NCBI GenBank assembly: GCA_022799115.1
Contig: JAAWNT010000002.1
Coordinates: forward strand, 1 to 64,000
Direction: 5' to 3'
Source of the DNA: Clostridiales bacterium
GTDB lineage: Bacteria; Bacillota; Clostridia; Oscillospirales; Acutalibacteraceae
DNA length: 64,000 nucleotides
Shown: positions 12,702-34,436 of the stretch, piece by piece
Numbering within the stretch: position 1 is the first letter of the stretch
Layout: each line of letters opens with the position of its first letter
Notes under the pieces: model-generated
The model's input: only the letters and a program-made list of their open reading frames with translations
What the model was told of the DNA's origin: nothing
The model's database searches: none
Made by a program: the position numbers and the translations under genes

Positions 12702-12850
12702 CTAACGGCGTTCCAAATACTTTTTCCGGGTGGCCAGTCCCCCACGGATATGCCGCTGCGCCTTGTTGACCTCCAACACACTTTTTACCTCTTTGTATAA
12801 TTGAGGGTCTACATACTTTAATCGTTCGGCTACGTCTTTATGTACCGTTG
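12702..12850 (-). pseudogene. spoIIID: spoIIID, 3' half (separated from its 5' half by a 21.5-kb element)
   Basis: Read on the minus strand in the spoIIID frame, this encodes TVHKDVAERL, then a helical stretch, RHIRGGLATRKKY and ends LERR-stop. The STVHKD..ERL and RHIRGG.AT..KY blocks are the conserved core and C-terminal part of SpoIIID (PF12116), the small DNA-binding regulator active in the mother cell under sigma-E. There is no start codon with a ribosome site; the only in-frame start-like codon (GTG 12887) lies inside the recombinase gene and has none. The frame is open and the conserved residues are intact, as expected if it is still used after joining to 34287-34436. It overlaps the last codons of the recombinase in another frame. 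Confidence 0.9.
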
Positions 12851-14373
12851 GAAGATAACAGAACAGATTGCTCCAGCCCGATTTCACTCAGGAGCTTCAG
12901 ATAAACGTCTATCTGTCCATGCTCGTCCACCTCGATGCGCTCAATGATGCGGGAGAGCAGGCCGTTGGACAGATTCCCGGCGGAAAGGACGCTCTCCAAG
13001 TCCCGGAACGTTTCCTTAAGCGCCCCGGCAAGCAGATCGCTTTTGCTGATGTTGTTCTGAATGAGGCGCAGTTCCTCGCTCAGGCGGTCGATGGTTTGAT
13101 TTAAGTTCTGGGTTTTGGCCTTGAGCTCCTGCATATCGATGATTTCGTTTTCATACATCTCCAGGTAACGCTGCTTGGAGCGTTTGGCCTTCTGAAGAGC
13201 CGATGACAGTTCCTGTTCGGTGAGCATGTTTTCATCCTTTGCCTTGAACTGGCGGTGAAACTCCGCGCGGATCCGTTCGATTACCCCCGGTTTGTCCTCC
13301 AGTATGGAGGCGAAATAGTCCCGGATGGAGGCGAGCAGCTCCGTCTCGTCAATCTTTGTTTTGTTGGGGCAGTAGTCCGCGCCGTTTGCGTTTCGGCCAG
13401 TGCATACCCAGTATACGCTGCGCTTTTGGGTTTTGCGTTCCACCCGGCGGAAGGAAGCGCCGCAGCAGGTGCACCGGATAAGCTTGCTGAAGATATGCCG
13501 TTGACTGCGGCGCTCCCCGGAGGCCTTGAAGGTTTCCCGGTTCTGTTGCAGAATTCGTTGCGCCTGATCGAACAGATCCCGCTCGATCAGGGCCAGCTCC
13601 GGGCGCTCCACCACCAGCCACTGCTCCGCCGGTTTATCGCCCCGTCGGCTGGTGAGGAAGTCCTCCACCTCCTGCTTGCCGTTTATCACCCTGCCGATGT
13701 ACAGCGGATTGCTGAGGATGCGGGAAACGGCGTTCTGGCTCCAGTTGCTGCCCCGTTTGGTTTTGACGCCCAGACGGTTGAGCTCCATGGCGATCTTATT
13801 GGCGCCCATATTTTGATTGCAGTACCAATCAAAAATCCGGCGCACCACTTTGGCTTCCTCTGGATTTTCGTGCAGTGTAAAGTACTCGCCGGGAATTTTG
13901 TCGTAGCCAAAGACGAGATTGGGCACCTTGCCCTGCTCGGCGTTGATCTTTTTGCCGAACTTGATGCGCTTACTGGTATTGGCGCTTTCCTCCTGGGCCA
14001 TGGCGGAGAGAAGGGTGAGCATGAATTCCGAGCTTTCCGAGGAGGTTTGGTCGTAGTTGACAAAGATGACTTTGATCCCCAATGCCTTGAGCTTGCGGAT
14101 GCTGGTGAGAAAGTCCAGGGTGTTTCTTGCCAGACGTGAGACGTCCTTGATGAGCACCATGTCAAATTCCCCGCGCCCCGCGTCGGATAGCATCCGCAAA
14201 AGCTGGGTGCGGTTTTTCATTTTGGTGCCGCTTTTTCCCTCGTCGGCGTAGATGTGTACCAGACGGTATCCGTTTTTTTTGGCGTACTCCGCAAAAAAGG
14301 TTTGCTGCGCTTCCAGACTGTCCAACTGCTCGTTCTTATTGGTGGAGACGCGGCAATAGGCGACGACCCGCAT
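12838..14373 (-). CDS. Large serine recombinase of the spoIIID element
   Basis: A 511-residue site-specific recombinase. Resolvase catalytic domain at 1-145 with YCRVS (Arg8, nucleophile Ser10) and DVSRLAR (Arg80, Arg83); recombinase domain about 165-270; zinc ribbon with Cys301, Cys303/304, Cys324 and Cys335; coiled coil about 385-445. This is the family of phage integrases and of SpoIVCA-type skin recombinases. It reads in the same direction as spoIIID and lies at the very edge of the insert: its stop codon TAA is partly formed by the 12-bp core. In the excised circle the stop becomes TAC and the frame stays open for 78 more codons (to 34087). The ATG at 14373 has GGAAAGG upstream; a TATAAT at 14416-14421 has no clear -35. 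No phage structural genes accompany it. Confidence 0.95.
   Translation of the reverse strand: MRVVAYCRVSTNKNEQLDSLEAQQTFFAEYAKKNGYRLVHIYADEGKSGTKMKNRTQLLRMLSDAGRGEFDMVLIKDVSRLARNTLDFLTSIRKLKALGIKVIFVNYDQTSSESSEFMLTLLSAMAQEESANTSKRIKFGKKINAEQGKVPNLVFGYDKIPGEYFTLHENPEEAKVVRRIFDWYCNQNMGANKIAMELNRLGVKTKRGSNWSQNAVSRILSNPLYIGRVINGKQEVEDFLTSRRGDKPAEQWLVVERPELALIERDLFDQAQRILQQNRETFKASGERRSQRHIFSKLIRCTCCGASFRRVERKTQKRSVYWVCTGRNANGADYCPNKTKIDETELLASIRDYFASILEDKPGVIERIRAEFHRQFKAKDENMLTEQELSSALQKAKRSKQRYLEMYENEIIDMQELKAKTQNLNQTIDRLSEELRLIQNNISKSDLLAGALKETFRDLESVLSAGNLSNGLLSRIIERIEVDEHGQIDVYLKLLSEIGLEQSVLLSSNGT
12839..12850. repeat. Attachment core, left end of the spoIIID element
   Basis: TATGTACCGTTG, identical and in the same orientation to 34322-34333; the bases on both sides differ, so the shared core is exactly 12 bp. 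Here it joins the recombinase 3' end to the spoIIID 3' half. On its inner side the sequence GTTG-N10-GAAC (12847-12864) forms one half of the predicted attP site. Confidence 0.85.
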
Positions 14374-14460
14374 TGTTTAATCATCCTTTCCTTTCGTTGC
14401 TTTGAACAATTGGTCATTATAAACAGGCGGAGGAATTCCGCTGTTGCGATGAATCAACGA

Positions 14461-14516
14461 AAAGAGCAGGGCGCCGTCCTTTTCTTATGTAAAAAAGAAA
14501 GGCCTCCTGCTCTTGC
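14461..14516 (-). terminator. Imperfect long hairpin between the 64-residue gene and the recombinase
   Basis: AAGAGCAGG/CCTGCTCTT outer arms and CCTTTTCTT/AAGAAAGG inner arms; on the minus strand the right-hand outer arm runs into TTTTCG. It could separate transcription of the small gene from that of the recombinase. Confidence 0.5.
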
Positions 14517-14542
14517 GTTGGCTAGCGGCGGTTATATGCCGC

Positions 14543-14737
14543 CTATGGATTCAAAGACTGCGGTATGTAATTGCTTTGAAGCTGGTTTTGCTCCTGCTTG
14601 AGCCGTGTTTGTTCCGCGGCGACAGAGGTTTTGATCTGCTCGCTGATGCCGCAGCCCAGCACTTGGATCATATAATTCCCCATTCGTCCCGGGGGATTGG
14701 GGTCGTGGAAAGTAATAGCAAGCGGTTTTCTTTCCAA
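14543..14737 (-). CDS. Small protein upstream of the recombinase, candidate directionality factor
   Basis: 64 residues beginning MERKPLAITFHDPNPPGRM, then a helical Gln/Glu-rich tail (SEQIKTSVAAEQTRLKQEQN). I do not recognise a named family. Reality is supported by the ribosome site AAGGGAGG placed 10 bases before the TTG start and by its position 170 bases upstream of, and on the same strand as, the recombinase. Skin-type and phage serine recombinases need a small partner protein to excise; such partners are unrelated in sequence and often encoded inside the element, so this is the best candidate here. That role is inference. It could instead be an unrelated small element protein. Confidence 0.6.
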   Translation of the reverse strand: MERKPLAITFHDPNPPGRMGNYMIQVLGCGISEQIKTSVAAEQTRLKQEQNQLQSNYIPQSLNP

Positions 14738-15181
14738 GCGGTGGACGCCTCCCTTCCCAAATGAATTCCTTTGCTAAATGGTTATGAAAGGAGGGGGTGT
14801 GTTATGACAGCATGTCCGGATTCTTTGGAAGGGGGGATTGCGTTGCGGCGCGCGCCTATGAGGGGAGAGGGATGAGAAGAAAGGCGGGAACATCAGAAAA
14901 CAATAGAAGAGGACCGGATGTATAAAATTCCCCGGAAATGGATGAATAACGAAAATAGAAAGGATTCCAAGCCGAGGATATGGAAGGTACTCCGATTTGC
15001 GGCTGTCAGGGCGGTTGGTCCGATGTGACGGATGTACTGTGCATGGTGATACAAGTATTTTCCAGTGGGAAAGAATGGGGGACCGTTTGCGCTGTTTTTT
15101 TACCGACCTCAGCTATTTTCCTCAATCTTCGAATTTTGTAGGCCAAATCCTGTAAAACAGTGCTGAAAAGGGGAGAATACG

Positions 15182-15210
15182 TTGACTTATAGTGGGGAAA
15201 AAATTATAAT
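15182..15210 (+). promoter_or_regulatory. Sigma-A promoter of the exopolysaccharide operon
   Basis: TTGACT (15182-15187), 17-bp spacer, perfect TATAAT (15205-15210). Expected start near 15217, leader about 60 nt. No other promoter is evident before 34106. The region 14738-15181 otherwise shows no supported gene. Confidence 0.8.
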
Positions 15211-15278: not shown

Positions 15279-16481
15279 ATGGTACACATTCCTTTCTCTC
15301 CTCCTGATATTGGAGAAGACGAAATTGCGGAAGTGGTTGACACTTTGCGTTCAGGGTGGATTACCACTGGACCGAAAACCAAGAAGTTTGAACAGGAGCT
15401 GACTGCTTTTTGCGGGACGGATCATACGGTATGTTTGAATTCCGCGACGGCGGCTCTGGAATTGACTCTTCGTATGCTGGGGATTGGTCCCGGTGATGAA
15501 GTGGTTACTTCTGCATATACTTACACAGCCTCAGCGAGTGTTGTATGTCATGTGGGAGCAACATTGGTATTGGTTGATACCGCGCCGGACTCTTTTGAAA
15601 TGGATTATGAAAAGCTGGCCGACGTCATTACGGAAAAGACCAAGGCGGTAATCCCTGTTGATTTGGCTGGAGTAATGTGCGATTATGACCGCATCTTTTC
15701 CGTGTTGGATGAGAAAAAGGGGCTGTTTCAACCCGCCAACAAACTTCAGGAGGCCATTGGCAGAGTTGCGGTGGTAACGGACGGCGCGCATGCGCTTGGC
15801 GCCCAGCGGCAAGGAAAGCGTTGCGGTCAGATTGCGGATTTTACCACGTTTTCTTTTCATGCTGTTAAAAACTTAACAACTGGTGAGGGCGGCGCTGTCA
15901 CCTGGAACGACATAGTTGGTATTGATAGCGGCGAACTCTATCGGCAGTACCAGCTTTTTTCTCTGCATGGACAATCCAAGGACGCGCTGGCAAAAACCAA
16001 AATAGGAGCGTGGGAATACGACATCCTGGCCCCTTATTACAAATGTAATATGACGGATATTATGGCGGCCCTGGGATTGGCGCAGCTGCGGCGGTATCAA
16101 GAGATGCTTCAGCGCAGACATTCGGTGATCGCGCGATATGACGAAAGCATCCGGGAACTTGGACTGGCTAGTCTCGCGCATTCCGGACCGGACTTTTGCT
16201 CAAGCGGGCATTTGTATTTAATGCGGCTGCCCGGGAGAAACGAAGAGCAGAGAAATCGCTTTATTGTGAACATGGCGGAAAAGGGAATCGCCACCAATGT
16301 TCACTATAAGCCGCTGCCTATGCATACCGCATATCAGAACTTAGGGTTTTGCAGGGAGGATTTCCCCCAGGCATATCGGATGTATCAAAATGAGGTTACT
16401 CTTCCTCTGCATACATGCCTTTCGGACGATCAGGTCAGTGTGATCATACAAACAATAAAAGAAATTGTGAAAGGTTCTTGA
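15279..16481 (+). CDS. DegT/DnrJ/EryC1/StrS sugar aminotransferase
   Basis: A 400-residue PLP enzyme of fold type I that transfers an amino group to a UDP- or dTDP-linked keto sugar. Seen: SGWITTGPKTKKFE near the N terminus, the phosphate-binding region NSATAALELTLRMLGIGPGDEVVT, cofactor-binding DGAHALGA (Asp168, His171) and the Schiff-base Lys197 in SFHAVKNLTTGEGG. It is the first gene of the operon, followed by the initiating transferase, which suggests that it makes the amino sugar loaded first. The 4,6-dehydratase for a typical 4-keto substrate is not obvious in the cluster, because CapE belongs to the L-FucNAc route; it may be elsewhere. Ribosome site GAGGGGG, start ATG 15279. Confidence 0.9.
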   Translation: MVHIPFSPPDIGEDEIAEVVDTLRSGWITTGPKTKKFEQELTAFCGTDHTVCLNSATAALELTLRMLGIGPGDEVVTSAYTYTASASVVCHVGATLVLVDTAPDSFEMDYEKLADVITEKTKAVIPVDLAGVMCDYDRIFSVLDEKKGLFQPANKLQEAIGRVAVVTDGAHALGAQRQGKRCGQIADFTTFSFHAVKNLTTGEGGAVTWNDIVGIDSGELYRQYQLFSLHGQSKDALAKTKIGAWEYDILAPYYKCNMTDIMAALGLAQLRRYQEMLQRRHSVIARYDESIRELGLASLAHSGPDFCSSGHLYLMRLPGRNEEQRNRFIVNMAEKGIATNVHYKPLPMHTAYQNLGFCREDFPQAYRMYQNEVTLPLHTCLSDDQVSVIIQTIKEIVKGS

Positions 16482-16484
16482 GAA

Positions 16485-17147
16485 ATGTACCGACTTTTTT
16501 TCAAGCGTTTTCTGGATATTGTGATTGCTCTCATTGGGCTGCCGGTTTTGGGAGTAATTGCTCTTTTTGCCGCGCCTGCAATCTATTTTACGGATCGCGG
16601 ACCGATCTTTTATAATGCGCAGCGGATTGGTAAGGACGGACGGCTGTTTAAAATGTATAAATTCCGCTCAATGAGGGTTAACGCGCCCGACATCCGACTG
16701 GCCGACGGATCGACCTACAACGGGGAGGATGACCCCAGGGTAACGAAGATCGGGAAGTTCCTGAGAAAAACTTCTCTGGACGAGGCTCCTCAGATTTTGA
16801 ATGTTTTAAGGGGCGATATGAGCTTAATCGGCCCCAGGCCCGACCCGCCGGATTGGCTTGAACGGTATCCCGAAGAGGTTAGGGTGTTTTTGACCATGAG
16901 ACCGGGAATTACCGGCTATAACCAGGCTTATTTCCGCAACTCCGCGGATGGACTGCAAAAGATGGAAAACGATGTTTATTACGCGGAGCATTGTTCGTTT
17001 ATACTGGATGTAAAGGTGTTTTTTAAGACCATCGCTTCGGTTTTGTTACATAAAAATATGTTTAAAGAAACGGGCTCCGAGGAAATACAGGGGGAACTGA
17101 TCGGCTCGGAGGAGGTAAAGGAGCAGGAAAGTGCAAACATACGCTAA
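16485..17147 (+). CDS. Initiating phosphoglycosyl transferase, PglC/WcaJ catalytic type
   Basis: Moves a sugar phosphate from a UDP-sugar to undecaprenyl phosphate, the first membrane step of polysaccharide assembly. At 220 residues it is the short monotopic form: one re-entrant hydrophobic helix (about 10-34), then RIGKDGRLFKMYKFRSM, the catalytic pair Asp99-Glu100 in KTSLDEAPQ, IGPRP at 115-119 and PGITGYNQ. The size matches PglC-like enzymes, which prefer diacetamido or amino-dideoxy sugars, and the preceding aminotransferase agrees with that. The acidic C-terminal tail (EETGSEEIQGELIGSEE-like) is an addition. It starts 3 bases after the aminotransferase stop. Confidence 0.92.
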   Translation: MYRLFFKRFLDIVIALIGLPVLGVIALFAAPAIYFTDRGPIFYNAQRIGKDGRLFKMYKFRSMRVNAPDIRLADGSTYNGEDDPRVTKIGKFLRKTSLDEAPQILNVLRGDMSLIGPRPDPPDWLERYPEEVRVFLTMRPGITGYNQAYFRNSADGLQKMENDVYYAEHCSFILDVKVFFKTIASVLLHKNMFKETGSEEIQGELIGSEEVKEQESANIR

Positions 17148-18207
17148 GGAAGTAGGCAGTGAATTCGACTGGGATTCTAATATCCCTTATCAAAGACAAC
17201 AGGACTGTCCGCCGGGCTTAAAAAACGGAATCGTATATTACCGGAGCGGACGGGACGCCCTGAGGGCGATTGCCTGCCGCTATCGAAAAACACATCGAAG
17301 GGTCCTGCTGCCGGCGCTGTGCTGTGAATCCATGGTGACGCCTTTTCTGGATACCGGCTATGAGGCGGCGTTTTATTCGCTTAACCGGGAGGATTTGACG
17401 GCGGACGCCGGGCGGATTCTGTCCGACCTGGACGAAGAAACCGTGTTTCTTTGGATGGACTATTTCGGTGTGACCTCCCTTTCACAGGATGCGTTACGGA
17501 CAATCCGGGAGCGGGTTCCAGGGGCGATTTTTGTCAAGGACAGAACCCATGATCTGTTGGAGAAAAAGAACGAGGGCGTGTTTGATTACCTTGTGGCGAG
17601 CGTCAGAAAATGGCTGGCGATCCCTGACGGGGGGGTGCTGTATTCAAAACATGAAATGCCGCCTCCTGGTGATGGCGATCCGTTGTTCAGCCAACTTAGA
17701 AGCGAGGCTATGAAGGAAAAGAGCCGGTATTTAGAGGCTGGAAATCCAGAGATGAAGCAACGCTTTCGTGAAAAATTGGGACTGGCTACGAAATGCATCG
17801 ATGATGCGAAGGAGGTAGCGGGAATGTCTCAAGACGCCAAAAAGATGCTGTCTGCCATTGATTTCTTAAAAATTGCGGCTGTTCGGAAAGAGAATGTGAA
17901 CGCCTTGGAACAAGCGGTGCAGGGGATCAAAGGAGTGGAGCTGTTGCCCGGTCAAACAGAGCGCAGCGGGCTTTATTATCCGGTGATGATCCGGTCGAAC
18001 CGTGACAGGGTACAGTCCGGGTTAGCCGAAAGGGGCATTTACTGCCCGGTGATTTGGCCGGAGCCGGAGCAGGCCAGGGGAGTCTGTCCGACGGCCTCTT
18101 ATATCGCCGGCCATATGCTGGCCTTGCCTTGTGATCAGCGATATGGGAGCGCGGATATGCATCGAATTGGTAAAGCGTTGGCAAATGTTGTGGGGAGTAT
18201 GGAATGA
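17131..18207 (+). CDS. Divergent PLP-fold aminotransferase-like protein
   Basis: 358 residues with the outline of a DegT-type fold I enzyme: YYRSGRDALRAI near residue 40 resembles the phosphate-binding start, DRTHDLL (about 137-143) takes the place of the D-x-A-H cofactor motif, and Lys160 in ASVRKWLAIPDGG is where the Schiff-base lysine is expected. Other family motifs are weak, so activity and substrate are open. It overlaps the previous gene by 17 bases and the ATP-grasp gene by 4, so it is translationally coupled to the latter. The pairing with an ATP-grasp ligase suggests a shared step, for example adding an amino acid or other acyl group to an amino sugar; this is inference. Start GTG 17131. 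Confidence 0.6.
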   Translation: MQTYAKEVGSEFDWDSNIPYQRQQDCPPGLKNGIVYYRSGRDALRAIACRYRKTHRRVLLPALCCESMVTPFLDTGYEAAFYSLNREDLTADAGRILSDLDEETVFLWMDYFGVTSLSQDALRTIRERVPGAIFVKDRTHDLLEKKNEGVFDYLVASVRKWLAIPDGGVLYSKHEMPPPGDGDPLFSQLRSEAMKEKSRYLEAGNPEMKQRFREKLGLATKCIDDAKEVAGMSQDAKKMLSAIDFLKIAAVRKENVNALEQAVQGIKGVELLPGQTERSGLYYPVMIRSNRDRVQSGLAERGIYCPVIWPEPEQARGVCPTASYIAGHMLALPCDQRYGSADMHRIGKALANVVGSME

Positions 18208-19403
18208 AAACGATTGTAATATTAGGAGCTAGTATTTTACAGCTGCCTGCCATAGAAAAAGCGAAAGAGCTGGGGCTGCGGGTGATTGCCGTGGATATGA
18301 ACCCAAACGCCGTTGGTTTTGAAAAGGCGGACGTCTGTCTGCCGGTGAGCACCATAGACATCCCGGGGGTGTTGGAGGGGCTGCGGCCCTATTCCATCGA
18401 CGCGGTGATGACATTGGCAAGCGATATGCCGATGCGCACCGTGGCTGCGGTTGCAAAACAATATGGATTGATTGGAATTGATGAGGATACCGCCCGAAAG
18501 GCCACCGACAAAGGGGAAATGCGCAACGCGTTGTTTGCCCATAGCGTACCGGTTCCGCGCTTTTATCATGCAAAGAACAAGGAAGAATATTTGGATGCAG
18601 TCCGCCGGTTTTCCAAACAGTGTATTGTGAAACCGGCGGATAATTCCGGCAGCCGGGGGATTTATCTGCTCAAGGACGTCAGCAATTCGGCGGATGTGGA
18701 CCATGCCTTTTCCTACAGTATGTCGTATACCCGCAACGGGGTGATCCTGGTAGAGGAATGGATGGAGGGACCCGAAGTAAGCGTGGAATCACTAAGCATA
18801 GACGGGAACGTCCATGTGGTGGCCATTACGGATAAACTGACTACGGGAGCTCCTCATTTTGTGGAGATGGGCCATTCCCAACCTTCGCGGCTGCCCGCTG
18901 CGGTACAGGAACAGATCAGGAAGGTGGCCGCTGAGGCGGTGCGGGCGATCGGAATCCAAAACGGCCCAGCGCATACCGAGATCATTGTGACGCAGGAGGG
19001 ACCCAAGGTGGTGGAATTGGGAGCCAGACTGGGCGGAGATAACATTACCACACACCTGACACCGTTATCCACCGGGATTGATATGGTCAAGCGCTGTATT
19101 GAGATTGCGTTGGGAGAAAAGCCCGATGTTTCCAGCGTAGAATCGCATGGGTCTGCCATCCGCTATTTTGACAGTCCGGCCGGAGCGCTGAAACGAATTC
19201 GAGGACTCGATGAGGCCCGGGCGCTTGCCGGAGTAAAACAGATTTCTTTTGTCAAAGAACCTGGTGAGACGATTGGGCGGATTCAAAACAGCACCGACCG
19301 GATCGGATTTGTCATTGCGCAGGCGGATACCGCCGAGAAAGCGGTGGATTGCTGCAATCAGGCGATGAATGCTGTAAAAATAGAGGTGGAGGGAGACAAA
19401 TGA
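18204..19403 (+). CDS. ATP-grasp ligase
   Basis: 399 residues. N-terminal nucleotide-fold domain (TIVILGASILQLPAIEKAKELG, DMNP), then an ATP-grasp domain with CIVKPADNSGSRGIY (glycine-rich lid), VEEWMEGPEVSVES and the metal-binding region HTEIIV...VVELGARLGGD. Such enzymes activate a carboxylate with ATP and join it to an amine; the architecture is that of the PurK/CarB-like amino acid ligases. In a polysaccharide operon it could form an amide on an amino sugar. It overlaps its neighbours on both sides by 4 bases (ATGA), so the block is tightly coupled. The substrate cannot be read from the sequence. Confidence 0.85.
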   Translation: MKTIVILGASILQLPAIEKAKELGLRVIAVDMNPNAVGFEKADVCLPVSTIDIPGVLEGLRPYSIDAVMTLASDMPMRTVAAVAKQYGLIGIDEDTARKATDKGEMRNALFAHSVPVPRFYHAKNKEEYLDAVRRFSKQCIVKPADNSGSRGIYLLKDVSNSADVDHAFSYSMSYTRNGVILVEEWMEGPEVSVESLSIDGNVHVVAITDKLTTGAPHFVEMGHSQPSRLPAAVQEQIRKVAAEAVRAIGIQNGPAHTEIIVTQEGPKVVELGARLGGDNITTHLTPLSTGIDMVKRCIEIALGEKPDVSSVESHGSAIRYFDSPAGALKRIRGLDEARALAGVKQISFVKEPGETIGRIQNSTDRIGFVIAQADTAEKAVDCCNQAMNAVKIEVEGDK

Positions 19404-20593
19404 AGATCATTGTCGCCACTCCGATCCTTTACGATCCTACCAGCCCCTTCAACCATCTGTTCCGGGACATATTACAGGGATTCCTGGACGCCGGGCACTC
19501 TGTCACCAGAATTGCGGCGGTGGAGAAAGGCGGTCAGAAGGAATATCGGCTGGGGATCGATCATCCGGAAATGGAGTATATAGAGGTTCAGCGTAAAAAG
19601 ACGCAGAAACAGAGCGTCATCAAGCGCTATTTGGCCGATAACCTGACCAATATTAAGATGGCCTGGAAGATATGGAGAGCCAAAAAAGGGGATGTGCTTT
19701 TTGAGGATGTCTCTTATTCTTCCATATGGAGCGTTTGGGCCGCCAGGGCCCGGCGTATTCGGGTGGTTTCCATGATTCAGGACGTCTGGCCGGACAATGC
19801 GGTGGAAAGCGGCTTGCTCTCCCGGGGATCCATGGTTTATCGTTTCTTTGATTGCATACAGAAAAAAGTGTATCGAAAATCAGAGAAGATTATTTGTATC
19901 TCTGACGACATCAAGGCGTTTATCGCTTCCAAGGGCGTGCCGGCGGATCGCATAGACGTGATCTACAACTGGGGTTATCAGGACGATCTCATCAAGATAG
20001 ACTGGAATGAAAACAAGTTTGTCCAAAAATATCGCTTGAGCCCGGATCTGTTTTATGCGGTGTATGCCGGAAACATTGGGAAGATGCAAAATGTGGATTT
20101 GATTGTGGACGCCGCCCGTCGGTTAAAGGATCAAAAACACATCCGTTTTTTGATCGTGGGAGGCGGCGTGCGCCGCGATGAGATTGAAGAGAAAATCAAC
20201 AGGGACGAGTGCTCGAACGTCACCATGCTGCCCATGCAGCCCAGCGAGCTGGCGACCCATATTTATTCCATGGCGGACGTGAATTTGATCCCCTTGGTCA
20301 AGGGCGGCATTAAAACCGCGCTGCCCAGCAAGACGGGTGTGTGCCTATCCTGCGGCAGGCCCATTGTAGCCTGTGTGGACGCGGACGCGTTGTTTGCAAA
20401 GGCGGTTCTCGCAGAGGGCGCAGGCTATGTGGTGGAGCCCGACGATTCCAAGGGACTTTCGGACCTGCTTTTGCGTCTGGCTGAAAAGGACAGGGAAGAG
20501 AGTTGCGAAGGGGCGTATGGCTGTTTTCAGCGGTTATTCCGCCGCAAGGATAACGTAGACAAATATGTAAAGGCGATTGCGAAAGGGAAATAA
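19400..20593 (+). CDS. GT4-family glycosyltransferase
   Basis: 397 residues with two Rossmann domains of the GT-B fold: N-terminal IIVATPILYDPTSPFNHLFRDILQGF and C-terminal YAVYAGNIGKMQNVDLIVDAARRL, then PLVKGGIKTALPSKTGVCLSCGRPIVA, where the usual E-x7-E motif is degenerate. It resembles WbuB-like transferases that add aminosugars such as FucNAc; that specificity is only suggestive, although the operon does make UDP-L-FucNAc. ATG 19400 overlaps the ATP-grasp stop codon as ATGA. It acts at the cytoplasmic membrane face on the undecaprenyl-linked intermediate. Confidence 0.88.
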   Translation: MKIIVATPILYDPTSPFNHLFRDILQGFLDAGHSVTRIAAVEKGGQKEYRLGIDHPEMEYIEVQRKKTQKQSVIKRYLADNLTNIKMAWKIWRAKKGDVLFEDVSYSSIWSVWAARARRIRVVSMIQDVWPDNAVESGLLSRGSMVYRFFDCIQKKVYRKSEKIICISDDIKAFIASKGVPADRIDVIYNWGYQDDLIKIDWNENKFVQKYRLSPDLFYAVYAGNIGKMQNVDLIVDAARRLKDQKHIRFLIVGGGVRRDEIEEKINRDECSNVTMLPMQPSELATHIYSMADVNLIPLVKGGIKTALPSKTGVCLSCGRPIVACVDADALFAKAVLAEGAGYVVEPDDSKGLSDLLLRLAEKDREESCEGAYGCFQRLFRRKDNVDKYVKAIAKGK

Positions 20594-20603
20594 CAGGAGT
20601 TTT

Positions 20604-23041: not shown

Positions 23042-23077
23042 TTGCTATATATTGATATACAAGGGGAAGTCCATGGA

Positions 23078-24196: not shown

Positions 24197-24198
24197 CC

Positions 24199-26913: not shown

Positions 26914-26921
26914 GTGAATCT

Positions 26922-28454
26922 ATGTCAATCAACTTAAGATCAAAAAAACTTGCGGTTACGGTATCCTATTTGATGATTCTGTTTAATACGGTCAGCAATT
27001 TAATCCTAACGCCGGTTTATCTGCACAGCTTGGGTACCGACGGGTATGGGTTTTATCAAATGATCTATGCCGTGGCCTCTTACATCCTGGTATTGGATTT
27101 CGGGATTGGAACCACCATGGTGCGGTTCATCTCTGAATACCGGGCCAAAGGCGACAAAAAGGGCGAGGAAAATTTCGCGTTCTACTGCGGCGTATTTGTG
27201 GCGTTTATCGCTGTGGCTGTGGTTTTGGTGGGGTTGGTCATCAACGCGAATTTGGAGCGCATCTATCAGACCTTATCCGCCGAAGATTTTGCGCTGGCCC
27301 ATAAGATGTTTTTGCTGATGCTGGTGGTTTTGGTTTTCACAGTGGTGGAACGGTTCTTTGAAGGCATCGCCATGTCCTATGAATATTTCAGCGTGGCCAA
27401 GCTGATCGGGATTGCCAAGCTTGTGGTGAAGTTTACCCTTGTGCTGCTTTTCCTTTCCGGGGGAATGGGCGTTTTAAGCCTGATCTATGTGGATATCATT
27501 TCTTTGGGATGTTCGCTGGCGCTCTTTTTCTTCTACGATTTCTTCGTTCTCAGGTTCAGGGTTCGTTACCATTATTGGGATTCCGGCATTGTCAAGCCCA
27601 TTGCCACCTTTACCTTGGCGATTCTTTTGCAGTCGGTGGTGGGGTATATCAACAATACCGCGGACAAAACCATTTTGGGGATCATGCTGGGAAAAACCGC
27701 AACGGGAATCTACTCGGTGGCTATGACCTTTATCACAGTCTTTAATATGCTGCCCACGGCCATATCCAATGTGTTTTTGCCCCAAGCCACAAAAATGGTG
27801 GTAAAGGGAACCGGCAACAGGGAAATGACCAATCTGGTGATTCGGCCGGGAAGGATGCAATTTATCATCTGCGGGGGCATTTTGGGCGGCTTTTTGATCC
27901 TGGGAAGGGACTTTATCGCTCTGTGGGCCGGTGACAATGTAATGGAAACCTGGCTTACCGCCTTAATCATCATGGTGCCCAACATGATTCCCTTGATCCA
28001 GAATGTCTGTAATAATATCCTGGACGCCAAAAATAAGCGGATGTTTCGTTCCTTGGTGATGTTGGGGTTATCCGTGTTCAATATTATACTGACGGTAATT
28101 TTAATTCAGCAGATCGGCCTGTTGGGGGCGCCGATTGCGACGGGAATCGCTTATCTGATCGGCTATGTGTTTATTATGAACATTTACTACCGAAAAAAGA
28201 TCGGACTGGAGGTTGGGCGCATGTTCCGGGAGATCTTTTCCGGAATTGCCCCCAGTTTGCTGGTCGCTTGTTTGATCTGCCTGCCGCTGTATTGGTGGAA
28301 GCAAGTGTCTTGGATAACGTTTTTGATAAAGGCGGCCGTATTTTGCTTGGTGTATGCCGCGCTGCTGCTCTGGTTCGGCGTGAATCAACAGGAAAAGGCG
28401 GAGCTGAAACGGGCGCTACAGAAGTTCAAGCCGGTCAGGGGCCGGGGCGCATAA
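26922..28454 (+). CDS. Wzx-like polysaccharide flippase
   Basis: A 510-residue protein of the MOP/polysaccharide-transporter superfamily with about fourteen helices. The start (VTVSYLMILFNTVSNLILTPVYLHSLG..GYGFYQMIYA) and the repeated two-bundle layout are typical. It would move the undecaprenyl-linked repeat unit across the membrane before polymerisation. The gene starts 8 bases after the FrhB stop. The C-terminal 20 residues are basic and cytoplasmic. Confidence 0.9.
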   Translation: MSINLRSKKLAVTVSYLMILFNTVSNLILTPVYLHSLGTDGYGFYQMIYAVASYILVLDFGIGTTMVRFISEYRAKGDKKGEENFAFYCGVFVAFIAVAVVLVGLVINANLERIYQTLSAEDFALAHKMFLLMLVVLVFTVVERFFEGIAMSYEYFSVAKLIGIAKLVVKFTLVLLFLSGGMGVLSLIYVDIISLGCSLALFFFYDFFVLRFRVRYHYWDSGIVKPIATFTLAILLQSVVGYINNTADKTILGIMLGKTATGIYSVAMTFITVFNMLPTAISNVFLPQATKMVVKGTGNREMTNLVIRPGRMQFIICGGILGGFLILGRDFIALWAGDNVMETWLTALIIMVPNMIPLIQNVCNNILDAKNKRMFRSLVMLGLSVFNIILTVILIQQIGLLGAPIATGIAYLIGYVFIMNIYYRKKIGLEVGRMFREIFSGIAPSLLVACLICLPLYWWKQVSWITFLIKAAVFCLVYAALLLWFGVNQQEKAELKRALQKFKPVRGRGA

Positions 28455-28498
28455 AAGGCCGGCGAATCGGTTACGCGTATTGATGAGGTGGTTATGAT

Positions 28499-29614
28499 AT
28501 GAAAATCTTGGTGGTTACCTTGCACCATGTTACAAATTTTGGTTCCATGCTGCAATCCTATGCAACCCAGGCTTATTTGGAATCCCTGGGACACACGGTG
28601 GAATTTGCGGATTTTGTGCCGGAGGGCCTGACCTTTACCCGCGCGTTATTCCCCCGCAATAACAACCGATCTTTTTTGGGGAAATGCATTCGCTTTTTTC
28701 CGGTTCTTGTCTGTAACCTGTTGCAGTACCGAATTGTAAACCGCTTTATCCGCAAGTACATTCACGTCACTCCCAAGCGATACCGGCGCTATCAGGATTT
28801 GCTGGAGGACGTTCCCCAGGCGGATGTTTACATGACGGGCAGCGATCAGATCTGGAATACCCAGAACAGCAATCCGCCGGAGGATTTAAAAGCCTATTAT
28901 TTATGCTTTGCTCCCAAGGGGAAGCGTAAAGTGGCCTATGCGGGCAGCTTTGGAAAAACGGAGTTTACGCCCGAGGAACAAAGCCGGATCGCCGGATATT
29001 TAAAGGAGTACGATTACTTATCGGTGCGCGAGGACACGGCGCTGCAAACCTTGCAGCAGCTGGGAATTCAGACCGGGGTTCACGTTTTGGATCCCAGCTT
29101 TTTGCTGGACGCGAAGCAGTGGAGCCAGTGGATCGCGCAGGAGCCGGTCCCGAAGAAGGGCTATGTATTTGTGTACAACTTGAACCGCAATCAAAAAATC
29201 AAGCAGTGCGCTTTGCGGATCGCTCAGCAAAAGGGATTGCGGATTGTTAATTTTGCCGACACCTTTGAGATGATTAAAGGGGCGCAAAACAGGCTGTCCA
29301 ATACGGCGCGGGATTTTGTGCGGTATCTGTCTCATGCGGATTATGTTGTGACCGATTCGTTTCATGGAACAGCGTTTTCCATTAATTTTTCCCGGCAGTT
29401 TATCTGCTTCCCGGCGCCAAAGTATAACAGCAGGCTGGAAAGCATTCTAAGAGTGACGGGATTGTCCGAACGGCTGATCGAGGAATGGCAGGAGGACATT
29501 GTTTTTAAGGAGATCGATTATCAAGAGGTTGGATCGATCATCGCGCAGGAACGGGAGAAATCGATGCAATTCCTGCAAACGGCATTAAAGGATGTGGATT
29601 ATGAGCATTGCTAA
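28499..29614 (+). CDS. Polysaccharide pyruvyltransferase-family protein (pair 2)
   Basis: 371 residues, same family as 24728-25777: NFGSMLQSYATQAYLESLG at the start, YMTGSDQIWNTQN around 115, SVREDTALQTL and TDSFHGTAFSINF near 285. Identity to pair 1 is confined to family motifs, so it is not a recent duplicate. ATG 28499 follows GAGGTGG. It overlaps its FrhB partner by 14 bases. Confidence 0.88.
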   Translation: MKILVVTLHHVTNFGSMLQSYATQAYLESLGHTVEFADFVPEGLTFTRALFPRNNNRSFLGKCIRFFPVLVCNLLQYRIVNRFIRKYIHVTPKRYRRYQDLLEDVPQADVYMTGSDQIWNTQNSNPPEDLKAYYLCFAPKGKRKVAYAGSFGKTEFTPEEQSRIAGYLKEYDYLSVREDTALQTLQQLGIQTGVHVLDPSFLLDAKQWSQWIAQEPVPKKGYVFVYNLNRNQKIKQCALRIAQQKGLRIVNFADTFEMIKGAQNRLSNTARDFVRYLSHADYVVTDSFHGTAFSINFSRQFICFPAPKYNSRLESILRVTGLSERLIEEWQEDIVFKEIDYQEVGSIIAQEREKSMQFLQTALKDVDYEHC

Positions 29615-30779
29615 AATAGGAATGGACTGCACCGGCTGCGGCGCATGTAAGCTGGCTTGTCCGGTGAATTGCATTGAGTGGAAAGAGAACCGGGAGGGGT
29701 ATTGCTATCCCCTGGTAACCGACCGGTGCATCGAATGCGGAAAGTGCGAGAGGGTATGCCCGGCGCTTACCGTGCCGGTTCACCAAGAGGAAAAGGAGGT
29801 TTACGCCGCCTATCTCAAGGACGAAGGGAAGCTGATGCAAAGTTCCTCCGGAGGAATTTTTACTGCGGTTGCCGAATGGGTATTAAACCAGGGGGGCGCC
29901 GTGTGCGGATGCGCGTTTGATTCCGAGATGAAGCCGGGGCATCGGATCGTAGAGGAGATAAGCCAGCTTGACGCGCTTAAGGGATCCAAATACGTGGAAA
30001 GCGACCTTGGAAACAGCTATTCGGAGGTCAAGCGGTTGTTGCAGCAGGACCGACATGTGTTCTTTGTGGGCACTCCCTGTCAGGTGGCCGGCCTTAAAAA
30101 TTATTTGGGAAAGCAATATGAGAAGCTCTTTACCGCAGACTTGATCTGTCACGGAGTCCCCAGCAGAACGTTGTTTCGTTCCTATCTGGATTGGCGCGAA
30201 AGCAAGCATCAGGGAAAACTGGAGGGGTATCAATTCCGGGACAAACGGAAGCACGGCTGGTCCCTCACCTATTCTTACACCATTTTGAAAAAGGGGAACC
30301 GGAAGAAAAGATATGAGGGGATTGGCTCTTTGTCCCCGTATTATCACGGATTTCTTTCCGGGGTATTCTATCGGGAAAGCTGCTACCGCTGCCGCTATGC
30401 AAGGCCGGAACGGACAGGGGATATCACATTGGGCGATTTTTGGGGCGTGGAAACCCAATGCCCGGACTGTTTTCATGCGGAAGGAGTTTCCGCCATCTTG
30501 GTCAACAGCGAAAAGGGAAAGGCCATGCTGGAGCAGATCGGCCGCGACGTGGTAAGGAACCCGATAACCTTTGATATGGTGGTTTATCAAAACAAGAATT
30601 TGTTGGAACCCACCCGGCGTCCTGCCGTCAGGGAACGTATTTATGAGGAGTTTTCTCAGAAGGGATTTGACTGGGTGGCCAAAACGTATCTCAAGGCGCC
30701 GCATTACTGTTTGGAACAGGTGAAATCCTGGATTCCGAACCGGGTGAGGCAAAAGATAAAGCGTATGCTCAGAAAATAA
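29601..30779 (+). CDS. Ferredoxin-FrhB protein (pair 2)
   Basis: 392 residues. N-terminal clusters DCTGCGACKLACP and RCIECGKCERVCP give two 4Fe-4S sites; then SSSGGIFTAVAEW, GTPCQVAGLKNYL and CYRCRYARPERTGDITLGDFWG define the FrhB domains. ATG 29601 is favoured over 29592 because the AGGATG ribosome site is about 10 bases upstream. Same gene order as in pair 1 (transferase, then FrhB). Confidence 0.88.
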   Translation: MSIAKIGMDCTGCGACKLACPVNCIEWKENREGYCYPLVTDRCIECGKCERVCPALTVPVHQEEKEVYAAYLKDEGKLMQSSSGGIFTAVAEWVLNQGGAVCGCAFDSEMKPGHRIVEEISQLDALKGSKYVESDLGNSYSEVKRLLQQDRHVFFVGTPCQVAGLKNYLGKQYEKLFTADLICHGVPSRTLFRSYLDWRESKHQGKLEGYQFRDKRKHGWSLTYSYTILKKGNRKKRYEGIGSLSPYYHGFLSGVFYRESCYRCRYARPERTGDITLGDFWGVETQCPDCFHAEGVSAILVNSEKGKAMLEQIGRDVVRNPITFDMVVYQNKNLLEPTRRPAVRERIYEEFSQKGFDWVAKTYLKAPHYCLEQVKSWIPNRVRQKIKRMLRK

Positions 30780-30794
30780 GAGGAGGTATGGGCG

Positions 30795-31838
30795 TTGTTT
30801 GATAATAAAGTATTGTTGATTTCGGGCGGAACCGGTTCTTTTGGAAATGCGGTGTTGAATCGGTTTTTGACGACCGATATAAAAGAAATTCGTATTTTCT
30901 CCCGGGATGAAAAAAAGCAGGACGATATGCGTCATGAATATCAGGCGAAATATCCCCAGCTCAGCAGCAAGATCAAGTTTTACATTGGAGATGTGCGCGA
31001 CCTTTCCAGTGTGAAAAACGCCATGCACGGCGTGGATTATATTTTTCACGCGGCGGCTCTCAAGCAGGTGCCATCCTGCGAGTTTTTCCCCATTGAGGCG
31101 GTTAAAACCAATGTGCTCGGCACGGAAAATGTGCTGACCGCCGCCATTGAAGCGGGCGTGAAAAAGGTGATCTGCCTGTCTACGGATAAGGCGGCGTACC
31201 CGGTCAACGCCATGGGTACTTCCAAAGCCATGATGGAAAAAGTGTTTGTGGCCAAATCCCGTACGGTTTCGCCGGATAAGACATTGATTTGCGGAACCCG
31301 GTATGGCAATGTGATGTGTTCCCGCGGCTCGGTAATCCCTCTGTTTATCGAGCAGATCAAAGCGGGCCAGCCCCTTACCGTTACCGAGCCCGCCATGACC
31401 CGTTTCATCATGTCTCTGGAAGAGGCGGTAGAGCTGGTTTTGTTTGCCTTTGAGAACGCGGAGAGCGGGGACATTATGGTGCAGAAGGCGCCGGCATGTA
31501 CGATTGGCGTTCTTGCCCAGGCGGTGAAAGAGCTGTTCCATGCGGAGAATGAGATAAAAGTAATCGGCATTCGGCATGGGGAAAAGATGTATGAGACGCT
31601 TCTCACCAATGAGGAATGCGCCAATGCGATTGATATGGGGAATTTCTACCGGGTGCCTGCGGACAAGCGTGATTTGAATTATGACAAATATTTCAAGGAA
31701 GGCGACGAAGAACGCAATCCGTTGACGGAGTTTAATTCCAACAACACCGAGCTGCTGAGTGTGGAGCAGGTAAAGGAAACGCTTCTTTCCCTGCCGTATA
31801 TCCGTGATGAAATTGCCGCCTGGGAGGCCAGATCATGA
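30795..31838 (+). CDS. capE: UDP-GlcNAc 4,6-dehydratase/5-epimerase, first step to UDP-L-FucNAc
   Basis: 347-residue extended short-chain dehydrogenase. NAD(P) motif GGTGSFG near residue 10 and the catalytic region STDKAAYPVNAMGTSKAMMEK, in which the usual YxxxK is MxxxK, as known for CapE/FnlA/WbjB. The C-terminal half (GTRYGNVMCSRGSVIPLF, RHGEKMYETLL) is also family-typical. It converts UDP-GlcNAc to the 4-keto-6-deoxy-L-arabino form. The next two genes complete the pathway, making this assignment firm. The start is TTG 30795 after AGAGGAGG. Confidence 0.93.
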   Translation: MFDNKVLLISGGTGSFGNAVLNRFLTTDIKEIRIFSRDEKKQDDMRHEYQAKYPQLSSKIKFYIGDVRDLSSVKNAMHGVDYIFHAAALKQVPSCEFFPIEAVKTNVLGTENVLTAAIEAGVKKVICLSTDKAAYPVNAMGTSKAMMEKVFVAKSRTVSPDKTLICGTRYGNVMCSRGSVIPLFIEQIKAGQPLTVTEPAMTRFIMSLEEAVELVLFAFENAESGDIMVQKAPACTIGVLAQAVKELFHAENEIKVIGIRHGEKMYETLLTNEECANAIDMGNFYRVPADKRDLNYDKYFKEGDEERNPLTEFNSNNTELLSVEQVKETLLSLPYIRDEIAAWEARS

Positions 31839-32974
31839 AGATACTCGTCACTGGAGCAAACGGATTTGTTGGAAAAAATCTGGTTGCCCAACTCAAAAAT
31901 ATCCAAGAGGGCAAGGTGAAAAACGACGGGCTTGCTCCTCTTACCATCTATGAATATGATCTTGACACCGCCCCTGAGTTGCTGGACCAATACTGCTCCG
32001 ACTGCGATTTCGTTTTTCATCTGGCCGGCGTGAACCGTCCGAAGGATCAGGATGAATATATGCAGGGGAATTTCGGATTCACCTCGACGCTGCTGGAGAC
32101 GCTCAAAAAGCATCGGAACAACAGCCCGGTGATGCTCTCTTCTTCCACGCAGGCTGCATTGGACAACCCGTACGGTCAGTCAAAAAAAGCAGGAGAAGAG
32201 CTGCTTTTGGAGTATGGGAAAGAAACCGGCGCAAAGGTGCTGATTTATCGGTTTCCCAATGTGTTCGGCAAGTGGTGCCGTCCCAATTATAACAGCGCGG
32301 TGGCGACGTTTTGTCACAACATTGCACACGGACTTCCCATTACCGTCAACGATCCGTCGGTGAATATGACGCTTGTTTACATCGACGACGTGGTGGAGGA
32401 ACTGATTCGTGGGCTGCAAGGCGGAGAGAACCGTCAGGGGCAATTATGCAGCGTGCCGGTGGAGCACTCCCTTACGCTTGGCGCAATCGTAGACCTGATC
32501 TACTCCTTTCAAAAAAGCCGCGAGGAGCGCAGCGTCCCGGATATGTCCGATGGGTTCACTAAAAAGCTTTACGCTACTTATCTGAGCTATCTTCCCGAGG
32601 ACCAGTTCCGCTATCCCCTAAAGATGAACATTGACAATCGGGGATCGTTTACGGAGATCATCCGCACAAAGGACCGCGGGCAGTTTTCCGTCAACATCTC
32701 CAAGCCGGGAATCACCAAGGGCAACCATTGGCATCACACCAAAAATGAAAAATTTGTGGTGGTCAGCGGCAGAGGCGTGATTCGGTTCCGCAAGCCGGAC
32801 AGTGACCAGGTGATTGAATATTTTGTTTCCGGAGATCAGATTGAAGTGGTGGATATTCCCACAGGTTACACCCACAACATTGAAAACTTAGGGGAGACGG
32901 ATATGGTCACCTTTATGTGGTGTAACGAATGCTTTGACCCGGAAAAGCCGGATACCTATTTTTTGGAGGTATAA
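31835..32974 (+). CDS. capF: Bifunctional epimerase/reductase CapF, second step to UDP-L-FucNAc
   Basis: 379 residues in two domains: a short-chain dehydrogenase (1 to about 245; ILVTGANGFVGKNL, SSSTQAALDNPYGQSKKAGEE with Tyr/Lys pair) that reduces the 4-keto group with NADPH, and a C-terminal cupin (about 250-379; GNHWHHTKNEKFVVVSG) that performs the C3 epimerisation and binds metal through its histidines. Exactly the architecture of Staphylococcus CapF (FnlB/WbjC). It overlaps capE by 4 bases. Confidence 0.94.
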   Translation: MKILVTGANGFVGKNLVAQLKNIQEGKVKNDGLAPLTIYEYDLDTAPELLDQYCSDCDFVFHLAGVNRPKDQDEYMQGNFGFTSTLLETLKKHRNNSPVMLSSSTQAALDNPYGQSKKAGEELLLEYGKETGAKVLIYRFPNVFGKWCRPNYNSAVATFCHNIAHGLPITVNDPSVNMTLVYIDDVVEELIRGLQGGENRQGQLCSVPVEHSLTLGAIVDLIYSFQKSREERSVPDMSDGFTKKLYATYLSYLPEDQFRYPLKMNIDNRGSFTEIIRTKDRGQFSVNISKPGITKGNHWHHTKNEKFVVVSGRGVIRFRKPDSDQVIEYFVSGDQIEVVDIPTGYTHNIENLGETDMVTFMWCNECFDPEKPDTYFLEV

Positions 32975-32978
32975 CAAA

Positions 32979-34106
32979 ATGTCCAAATTAAAACTGATGA
33001 CCATCATCGGGACCCGTCCGGAGATTATCCGGCTGAGCGCCGTGATGAAATGCGCCGACAAGTATTTTAATCATATTGTGGTACATACCGGTCAAAACTG
33101 GGATTATACCCTTAACGAGGTGTTTTTTCAGGATTTGGGCCTGCGCGAACCGGACTATTATCTGGACAGCGTGGGAAAGCACTTGGGCGAGACGATGGGG
33201 AACATCATCGCCAAATCCTATGATGTGATGCAAAAAGAGCAGCCGGACGCCCTGCTGGTGCTGGGCGATACCAATTCCGCGCTGTCTGCTGTGAGCGCCA
33301 AACGATTAAAAATACCGATTTTCCATATGGAGGCGGGAAACCGCTGCTGGGACTGGAATGTTCCCGAGATGGTCAACCGCACCATCGTGGATCATATCTC
33401 CGATATCAACATGCCTTATACCGAGCACAGCCGCCGTTATCTTCTCAACGAGGGGGTTGACGGCAAAACCATGTTTGTGACAGGCAGCCCCATGCGGGAG
33501 GTGCTGCGGGATCATGCCGGAAGGATTGAAGAGAGCGACGTGCTCAGCCGTCTTAATTTGGAGCCCAAGAAGTACATCCTGCTTTCCGCCCATCGGGAGG
33601 AGAACATTGACCATGAGGAGCACTTCATGAGCCTGATGACCTCGATTAACCACATCGCGGAAAAATATCAGATGCCGGTTATCTATTCCACCCATCCCCG
33701 CAGCCGCAACATCATAGAGAAACGCGGCTTCCAGTTTCATCCCCTGGTGCAGAGCTTGCAGCCCTTTGGCTTCTTGGATTACAACAAGCTCCAGAAAAAC
33801 GCCTACTGTGTCCTATCGGACAGCGGAACACTGAGCGAGGAGAGCGCAATGCTCCACTTCCCGGCGGTTCTCATCCGTACCTCTACCGAGCGCCCGGAGG
33901 TACTCGATAAGGGCACCATCGTGGTGGGAGGCATTCAGGGCGAGGATGTGGAACAGGCCATGAATCTGGCGGTATCCATGTTCCAAAACGGCGAAGAGGC
34001 GGTTATGGCGGAGGATTACGCCGATACCAATGTATCCGTCAAGGTGATTAAGATCATCCAGAGCTATGCAAAGATTGTGAATATGACTACTTGGAGAAAA
34101 TTTTAA
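32979..34106 (+). CDS. capG: UDP-N-acetyl-L-talosamine 2-epimerase CapG, last step to UDP-L-FucNAc
   Basis: 375 residues, UDP-GlcNAc 2-epimerase fold. MTIIGTRPEIIRLSAVM, HTGQNWDYTLNEVFF, LGDTNSALSAV, FHMEAGNRCWDWNVPEMVNR and LSDSGTLSEES are those of the CapG/FnlC/WbjD group, in which EAGNR..D is characteristic. It inverts C2 to give UDP-L-FucNAc. ATG 32979 has GGAGGT 8 bases upstream; the longer frame from 32934 overlaps capF needlessly. It is the last gene of the operon and lies within 230 bases of the element end. Confidence 0.94.
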   Translation: MSKLKLMTIIGTRPEIIRLSAVMKCADKYFNHIVVHTGQNWDYTLNEVFFQDLGLREPDYYLDSVGKHLGETMGNIIAKSYDVMQKEQPDALLVLGDTNSALSAVSAKRLKIPIFHMEAGNRCWDWNVPEMVNRTIVDHISDINMPYTEHSRRYLLNEGVDGKTMFVTGSPMREVLRDHAGRIEESDVLSRLNLEPKKYILLSAHREENIDHEEHFMSLMTSINHIAEKYQMPVIYSTHPRSRNIIEKRGFQFHPLVQSLQPFGFLDYNKLQKNAYCVLSDSGTLSEESAMLHFPAVLIRTSTERPEVLDKGTIVVGGIQGEDVEQAMNLAVSMFQNGEEAVMAEDYADTNVSVKVIKIIQSYAKIVNMTTWRKF

Positions 34107-34186
34107 TCTGAGACGGCTCTTGGAGAGCGCCGGATGTGGCGATCTCATCGCATGGATAAAGCGAGCCGCTACAGAGAGTAAAATAG

Positions 34187-34236
34187 AAAAGGCCGGATTC
34201 CGACGACTTCTCAAGCCATCGGAATCCGGCCTTTTT
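34187..34236. terminator. Bidirectional terminator of the exopolysaccharide operon
   Basis: A 17-bp perfect stem (34187-34203 with 34219-34235) rich in GGCCGGATTCCGA, with T-runs on both strands (CCTTTTTG on plus, CCTTTTCTATTTT on minus). On the plus strand it ends the operon; on the minus strand it would stop transcription that enters the element from the spoIIID promoter. Confidence 0.88.
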
Positions 34237-34286
34237 GAAAAAAGCGAGTTTGGTCCGGCATGAACGGATTTTTGAACGCTGCCGGA

Positions 34287-34436
34287 TCATCCGAACGATT
34301 TGTTCCAAAATGCTACAACCGTATGTACCGTTGATTTGCTTACACCGAATTTTTTTGCGGCCTTGCGCACCGTAGCCTTACTTTCGATTATATATTCTCC
34401 CAATTCAATGGCGCGCTCTTCAACAATGCCTTTCAC
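34287..34436 (-). pseudogene. spoIIID: spoIIID, 5' half (interrupted at codon 38)
   Basis: GTG start at 34436 with GGGAGGG 8 bases upstream. The first 38 codons encode VKGIVEERAIELGEYIIESK followed by ATVRKAAKKFGVSKSTVH, the N-terminal region and helix-turn-helix of SpoIIID. After the core repeat the frame leaves spoIIID, adds eleven unrelated residues (TVVAFWNKSFG) and stops. The lost part lies at 12702-12850. Joined through the repeat, codon 38 (His) would be followed by KDVAERL, giving 83 residues, close to the size of known SpoIIID. A sigma-E-like promoter precedes it. As it stands the 49-residue product lacks the conserved C-terminal part needed for DNA binding and is presumably inactive. 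Confidence 0.92.
34322..34333. repeat. Attachment core, right end of the spoIIID element
   Basis: TATGTACCGTTG, same sequence and orientation as 12839-12850. It covers the codons for STVH of SpoIIID. On its inner side GTTC-N10-CAAC (34302-34319) mirrors GTTG-N10-GAAC at the other end. The central dinucleotide of the combined site is TG (34324-34325), inside the shared core. Confidence 0.85.

Follow-up and report, generated by a model that had tools for sequence, protein, structure and literature searches.

A site-specific element interrupts the sporulation gene spoIIID in Clostridia and is predicted to leave the chromosome during sporulation

The DNA analysed here, called the window below, is a stretch of 64,000 nucleotides from a Clostridiales bacterium (assembly GCA_022799115.1, contig JAAWNT010000002.1, positions 1 to 64,000), in which spoIIID is broken at S-K-S-T-V|H by an element of 21,483 bp with a 12-bp core at both ends. 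The gene lies on the minus strand. Its 5' part (34322..34436) consists of 38 codons from the GTG at 34436 plus the core, and its 3' part (12702..12850) of the core plus 45 codons to the TAG at 12702-12704; both were recognised by translation and by PF12116, the Pfam family of SpoIIID. The core, CAACGGTACATA, is the longest run common to both flanks and occupies 34322-34333 and 12839-12850. Joining the halves through it gives one open frame of 83 codons in which SKSTVH-KDVAERL and RHIRGG.AT are unbroken. The 5' stretch matches positions 2-40 of PF12116 (E 1.3e-15) and the 3' stretch positions 35-80 (E 7.1e-21), and beyond these two half-gene matches none was found to this family in the whole genome (G000, 99.99% complete, 71 contigs). 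A sigma-E-like promoter is predicted, as read from the sequence, before the 5' part (34468..34496, minus strand; ACATAAT - 14 nt - CATATAAT). The solved B. subtilis SpoIIID structure, 2L0K, can be aligned over residues 3-80, and the split point lies within its SKSTVHKD; from what is known of helix-turn-helix proteins, the 5' half by itself should be unable to bind DNA. An earlier note on this DNA had claimed a spoIIID split between 12-bp cores 21,483 bp apart, an exact in-frame rejoining to 83 residues with the conserved blocks, and a large serine recombinase bordering one core. The flank comparison bears out the first claim and the joined translation the second, and a recombinase gene was indeed found at 12838..14373 on the minus strand.

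The recombinase has 511 amino acids and the architecture of its class, namely a resolvase domain (PF00239), a recombinase domain (PF07508) and a zinc ribbon (PF13408). Its TAA stop codon (12840-12838) sits on the core and is provided by the spoIIID 3' half, so that integration would trim the protein. In the excised circle the frame would run on, and several elements have a similar tail of ~12-14 residues, for example TYGSNKTERFVWAVN; in three genomes (G008, G180 and G355) the stop is located before the core.

The intervening element as a whole spans 12842..34325 between the crossover points. The likely crossover dinucleotide is CA, at 34324-34325 in the core copy of the 5' junction (attL side) and at 12841-12842 in that of the 3' junction (attR side), to judge from the cores of other elements: when the H codons are aligned, CA is common to both junctions in all pairs compared except G431, and in G062 and G106 little else is. 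The attP site reconstructed from the two ends forms an inverted repeat centred on CA, of which ACCGTTC...GACAACCGTA-CA-TACGG..GTAAC...GAACGGT is typical. In the window its left arm (34294..34323) and its right arm (12843..12872, overlapping the end of the recombinase gene), both on the minus strand, are symmetric at 19 of 30 positions, against a shuffle mean of 7.9. Symmetry beyond shuffles was found in all 17 elements fetched whole (p at most 0.004 each), with a mean of 18.6/30 for attP compared with 7.9 for shuffled sequence and 9.6 for attB. The left arm reads GTAACAA in many elements, such as those of G420, G050 and G676, and resembles the C. difficile SpoIIID box, KRTAACARK (PMC5025042). 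It is possible that SpoIIID feeds back on its own att site, or that the resemblance is a coincidence.

A small open reading frame (ORF) of 64 amino acids with the motif FHDPN lies upstream of the recombinase gene (14543..14737, minus strand). Its family consists of proteins of ~50-80 residues encoded upstream of the recombinase on the same strand, usually within ~1.6 kb (5.4 kb in G333 and some 20 kb in G013), with an L....FHxPN motif whose L, H, P and N are invariant in 18 aligned members; G123 has N for H. Within the order, 22 of 395 genomes have the small ORF, that is 19 of the 20 genomes with the recombinase group described below and three of one genus. In those three (G251, G240 and G311; loci L261, L262 and L263) an FHNPN ORF stands just upstream of or near a whole spoIIID, with a second copy ~8 kb away in G251, and the order survey reported no recombinase match at 1e-60. 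The window protein has no Pfam or NCBIfam match, and three members scanned gave no Pfam match and insignificant NCBIfam and PHROG matches only. Database searching returned 3,398 protein matches at 1e-3; among the 120 matches listed, the named ones are called hypothetical.

The small ORF is preceded by a predicted sigma-E-like promoter of its own (14779..14807, minus strand; TCATAAC - 14 nt - CATAACCA). Upstream sequences were scored for a sigma-E-type pattern, an AT-rich -35 element followed after 13-18 nt by CATA, with dinucleotide shuffles as controls. Of 28 elements, 21 have the pattern before the small ORF (the shuffles give 2.7 on average and 7 at most); it occurs before the intact spoIIID of relatives in 27 of 28 (shuffle mean 4.5), compared with 4 of 28 before the recombinase (shuffle mean 3.0). 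An earlier consensus score had pointed the same way (13.5 vs 11.5 shuffled for the small ORF, 12.8 vs 12.8 for the recombinase).

An unoccupied site exists within the genus. The congener G001 has an uninterrupted spoIIID, and its DNA follows the 5' flank of the window as far as the core and takes up the 3' flank at the core, the two matches overlapping by 10 bases. Of 37 codons compared between window and congener in the 5' half, 13 differ silently and none by replacement; among the 45 codons of the 3' part there are 20 silent and three replacement differences.

The split also recurs. Our order survey covered 395 genomes at least 90% complete, 357 of them with a SpoIIID match. The best match was in the half-gene range in 26, and removal of G303, whose spoIIID is cut by a contig end, leaves 25 genomes with half-genes only (~6%). 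Both halves are present in 21 of these, including the atypical G431, which we count as doubtful: it has two pieces, but the 3' side lacks the core, and the spoIIID-linked recombinase group was not found in it. The other four (G053, G054, G114 and G215) have one half and may reflect assembly gaps, yet G053 carries the recombinase and G114 and G215 the left arm of the element at the break. In 15 of the 21 two-half genomes (the one analysed here included) the halves share one contig and strand with the 5' half upstream, as excision needs; in six they lie on different contigs. In one genome, G131, another spoIIID 5' half is matched (C23:82140-82256) in addition to the split gene. A separate draw of 60 relatives added G008 and G013, and ten loci from another genome collection include that of an isolate, Agathobaculum butyriciproducens DSM 100391. 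Beyond the order, both halves were found in nine genomes (G553, G486, G788, G676, G772, G791, G488, G691 and G476) and one half in G628. Of 258 genomes in a class sample, 192 gave a match, and 12 of these had their best match in the half-gene range; all of the 12 except G542, G640 and G697 were inspected. The joined frame is open in all 36 pairs, with a start codon inside the searched window in 34 (all except G355 and G399). Another 35 two-half genomes (G431 doubtful) are split at this very codon, and this, together with the empty site in the genus, argues that the split is not due to chance.

The recombinases follow the split closely. Recombinase surveys of the order and of a class sample of 393 genomes scored three candidates per genome, and their counts are minima. 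Matches at 1e-60 or better occur in 63 of the 395 order genomes, and a spoIIID-linked group stands out in 20 of them at 1e-128 or better, with 45-61% identity (the window itself apart). All 20 have a split or half spoIIID, and in 18 (window included) the recombinase ends within ~30 bp of the 3' half; it lies at the other end in G106, and ~12 kb away on the contig of the 3' half in G387. The next-best recombinases (E 1e-121 to 1e-103) belong to seven genomes, all of which keep spoIIID whole. In the ten loci of the other collection, three of which repeat genomes of the order survey (G241, G420 and G180), the recombinase abuts the 3' half in nine. In the locus L038 (G065) the end with the recombinase meets a reversed 5' half, as an inverted element or an assembly error would give. 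Outside the order, the group occurs in eight genomes of the class sample (G498, G788, G676, G772, G628, G486, G791 and G553), seven of them, all except G498, with a split or half spoIIID. A second lineage with 33-38% identity (G488, G691 and G476) occupies the same codon but differs in its arms, so that the site was chosen by two recombinase lineages or more. The arms of G691 are also those of G208, in which the recombinase was not found.

The recombinases of G053, G424, G162, G271, G116 and G498 are 92-96% identical to the nearest neighbours listed for them in the set compared, and their hosts belong to different families and one other order, which points to recent horizontal transfer. We infer that the element family is horizontally mobile and that spoIIID is a tolerated address. 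Sister recombinases also occur within one genus each (G198/G286, 92% identical; G553/G486, 75%), and in these pairs the split looks vertically inherited. The spoIIID halves have dN ~0.04 and dS 0.7-2.9 in G198/G286, and dN 0.08 and dS 1.8 or saturated in G553/G486. In both halves replacements are few and silent changes many, the pattern expected of a gene whose product is still being used. The pair G162/G271 was not used as a test of selection because its recombinases are not sisters.

The hosts retain other sporulation genes, with spoIVA in 18 of 18 genomes searched. Among 17 split-spoIIID genomes, a near full-length sigK match was found in eight, of which the window genome alone exceeds the family cut-off (intact at G000:C13:96134-96811). 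In four (G333, G106, G116 and G198) sigK is itself in two pieces, and the remaining five are ambiguous. The sigK gaps of three (L148, L149 and L150, from G333, G116 and G198) hold a recombinase of their own, unrelated to the one in spoIIID, so that in some species two successive rearrangements would be required. A split sigK in G001 was dropped from consideration, as the match runs to the contig end (22,232 of 22,234).

Taken together, a 21.5-kb site-specific element interrupts spoIIID, and we consider it likely that this element leaves the chromosome during sporulation and thereby restores the gene. The proposal of an intervening element that can be excised, made in the earlier note, is strongly backed by comparison: by the recurrence of the split, the empty site, the palindromic attP, the open frames, purifying selection on the halves where the split looks inherited, and the sigma-E-like promoter of the companion ORF. 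In the predicted sequence of events, the recombinase alone would integrate the element at the spoIIID attB, with CA inside GTACAT as crossover. Once sigma-E is active in the mother cell it would transcribe the small FHDPN/FHNPN ORF, whose product, acting as directionality factor, would switch the recombinase to excision between attL and attR. Sigma-E would also transcribe the now continuous spoIIID, and SpoIIID would then activate its regulon, sigK included. The forespore would retain the element, allowing inheritance through spores. We are evenly divided over a wider reading, in which mobile elements have made spoIIID a second and earlier mother-cell DNA lock across Clostridia: sigma-E would act through a new kind of FHNPN directionality factor to bring about excision and thus SpoIIID, a separate sigK lock would follow later in some species, and the cargo would be lost from the mother cell and kept in the spore.

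Rejoined genes and excised circles were also sought directly. Against 5.8 billion proteins clustered at 90%, the best match to the joined window SpoIIID was 98% identical. A joined Agathobaculum SpoIIID, also at 98%, is encoded on two ENA contigs (719 and 713 bp), with differences that look like indel errors; such contigs fit either excised DNA or element-free strains and decide nothing. In the search for an excised circle, no relative of the recombinase was found in viral contigs. An attP pattern search returned seven stretches, none with a recombinase, and these were attributed to chance. In phage records, 577 sequences match the recombinase and nearly all are distant; among the 12 listed the best reaches 47% and the rest 29-33%. 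The one at 47%, GenBank entry MT838016.1 (L259, 6.4 kb, 'Bacteriophage sp.'), was rejected as a phage: it is an integrated end with a recombinase of the group and carries the spoIIID 3' half, and therefore looks like bacterial chromosome.

Several observations weigh against excision in the mother cell as proposed. The 98% match differs from the window protein at two residues and so is not the same allele, and we counted 98% rather than 100% as a point against. The directionality factor is a candidate named through guilt by association; its AlphaFold model is a single helix of low confidence, G106 has the recombinase without the small ORF, and the small ORF occurs near a whole spoIIID in G240, G251 and G311. 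The promoter pattern was defined after the upstream sequences had been viewed and the 28 sequences are related, for which reasons the contrast between ORF and recombinase weighs more than the numbers themselves. The recombinase counts are minimal, with only three candidates scored per genome; the recombinase group is supported as a clade at 0.72, and G791 falls outside it at a support of 0.35. In the single-contig genome G498, a recombinase 96% identical to spoIIID-linked ones and an element end are present with no spoIIID match anywhere. The recent transfer seen in the near-identical recombinases means that some insertions may be young and untried by selection.

The rival that survives best is a mobile element and nothing more, for which spoIIID merely offers a conserved site; it would be excised occasionally rather than in step with the mother cell, and would reside mostly in spore-negative or poor sporulators. 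Near-identical recombinases (92-96%) in different host families and orders speak for it, as does a recombinase without spoIIID in G498, and Ethanoligenens harbinense YUAN-3 is placed among the non-spore-formers (PMC3533761). We nevertheless regard this explanation as unlikely. Against it stand a sigma-E-like promoter on the companion ORF and not on the recombinase, joined frames open in 36 of 36 pairs, spoIVA retained in every genome searched, and the two congener pairs with sister recombinases, where dN is low relative to dS in either half. Less probable still is a dead insertion, with spoIIID a pseudogene whose halves look intact because the event is recent. The mostly silent differences between the window halves and the intact congener gene would also fit a recent insertion, but the window has an intact recombinase gene, small ORF, core and pair of arms, and in two genera (g66 and g226) the split seems to predate the species and the halves are still conserved. 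The earlier note had held that a second intact spoIIID together with a complete lack of junction reads in sporulating cells, or a host that never sporulates, would make this a dead insertion, and had proposed looking for another copy in the genome and for an uninterrupted gene in relatives. The Pfam search of the genome revealed no intact second copy, and sigK and spoIVA are present, so that the grounds it named for refutation did not turn up. In the congener with the whole spoIIID, the homology to the two flanks of the window meets at the core. A chimeric contig or other assembly artefact, conceivable because the draft genome comprises 71 contigs and the window belongs to one of them, is refuted for practical purposes by the same one-contig arrangement in 14 other order genomes (including the single-contig G044) and in the single-contig G008 and G553, and by a precise core and attP symmetry that cannot arise by misassembly.

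The rest of the element is occupied by a polysaccharide biosynthesis and export cluster on the plus strand (15279..34106; Pfam on 17 ORFs, two without a match), with aminotransferase, sugar transferase, glycosyltransferase, flippase-type, pyruvyl transferase and nucleotide-sugar epimerase-type families. Pfam on 18 element ORFs showed polysaccharide families and the recombinase and no phage structural or lysis gene; of the small ORFs the scans took in the companion only. The recombinase itself matches an integrase family in PHROG. Lengths vary from 3,037 to 34,876 bp among the 17 elements fetched whole, and in G553 the spoIIID halves are ~65 kb apart. Apart from the recombinase no larger gene is widely common to the elements; that of G008 has one glycosyltransferase-like ORF besides it. 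Outside the element, an M23 peptidase (10535..11650, plus strand; PF01551, E 2.5e-19) agrees with the SpoIIQ-like neighbour noticed earlier and fits the spoIIQ-spoIIID neighbourhood known in clostridia (PMC3533761).

SpoIIID is required for sigK transcription in C. difficile (PMC5025042), so that a rearrangement of spoIIID would place a gate in the mother-cell cascade one step ahead of skin; if the proposal is true, the spore programme has an on-switch earlier than the known one in sigK. The split is not confined to one strain: 25 of 395 order genomes have half-genes only, and a survey of 51 people (PMC10688793) detected Agathobaculum butyriciproducens, which is among the carriers, in 49. At least two recombinase lineages have settled in the same spoIIID codon, and the elements offer a ready set of recombinase, att sites and candidate directionality factor. 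Gene callers may score spoIIID as missing in split genomes.

The interrupted sporulation genes named in passages of PMC10747680, PMC6957869 and PMC5595907 are sigK, spsM, spoVFB (once spoIVFB), spoVR, gerE and yabG, with spoIIID not among them, and no report of an element in spoIIID was found in the literature searched (most subscription journals lay outside the search). The nearest parallel is skin in sigK of Bacillus subtilis and Clostridioides difficile, where an element with a large serine recombinase likewise splits the gene of a mother-cell regulator and in-frame excision, here predicted, restores it. In C. difficile the skin recombinase is constitutive and the switch is a small directionality factor under sigma-E/SpoIIID control (PMC5025042); a sigma-E-like promoter on the small ORF and not on the recombinase suggests the same arrangement here. 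The two differ in that skin targets sigK whereas the present element targets spoIIID, one step earlier. The description of the element as skin-like thus holds for its mode of working and not for kinship: its recombinase is ~25% identical to those inside the split sigK of G198, G116 and G333 (named skin recombinases uncompared), and its 18 ORFs include no phage structural family by Pfam. The gin element in gerE of Bacillus cereus ATCC10987 also splits the gene of a small DNA-binding regulator and is free of phage genes, and there a recombinase works with helpers (GirC, GirX; PMC5595907); gin, however, has three recombinase genes and is known from one B. cereus strain, whereas the spoIIID element has one recombinase and elements of its kind occur in many genera. 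The SP-beta prophage in spsM, vfbin in spoVFB, the element in spoVR and yin in yabG interrupt sporulation genes likewise, and such genes, where studied, are restored by excision (PMC6957869, PMC10747680), but none of these elements lies in spoIIID and SP-beta is an active phage. In comparison with these systems, what is new is the target gene, recombinases unlike those in sigK, a candidate family of directionality factors and a broad distribution.

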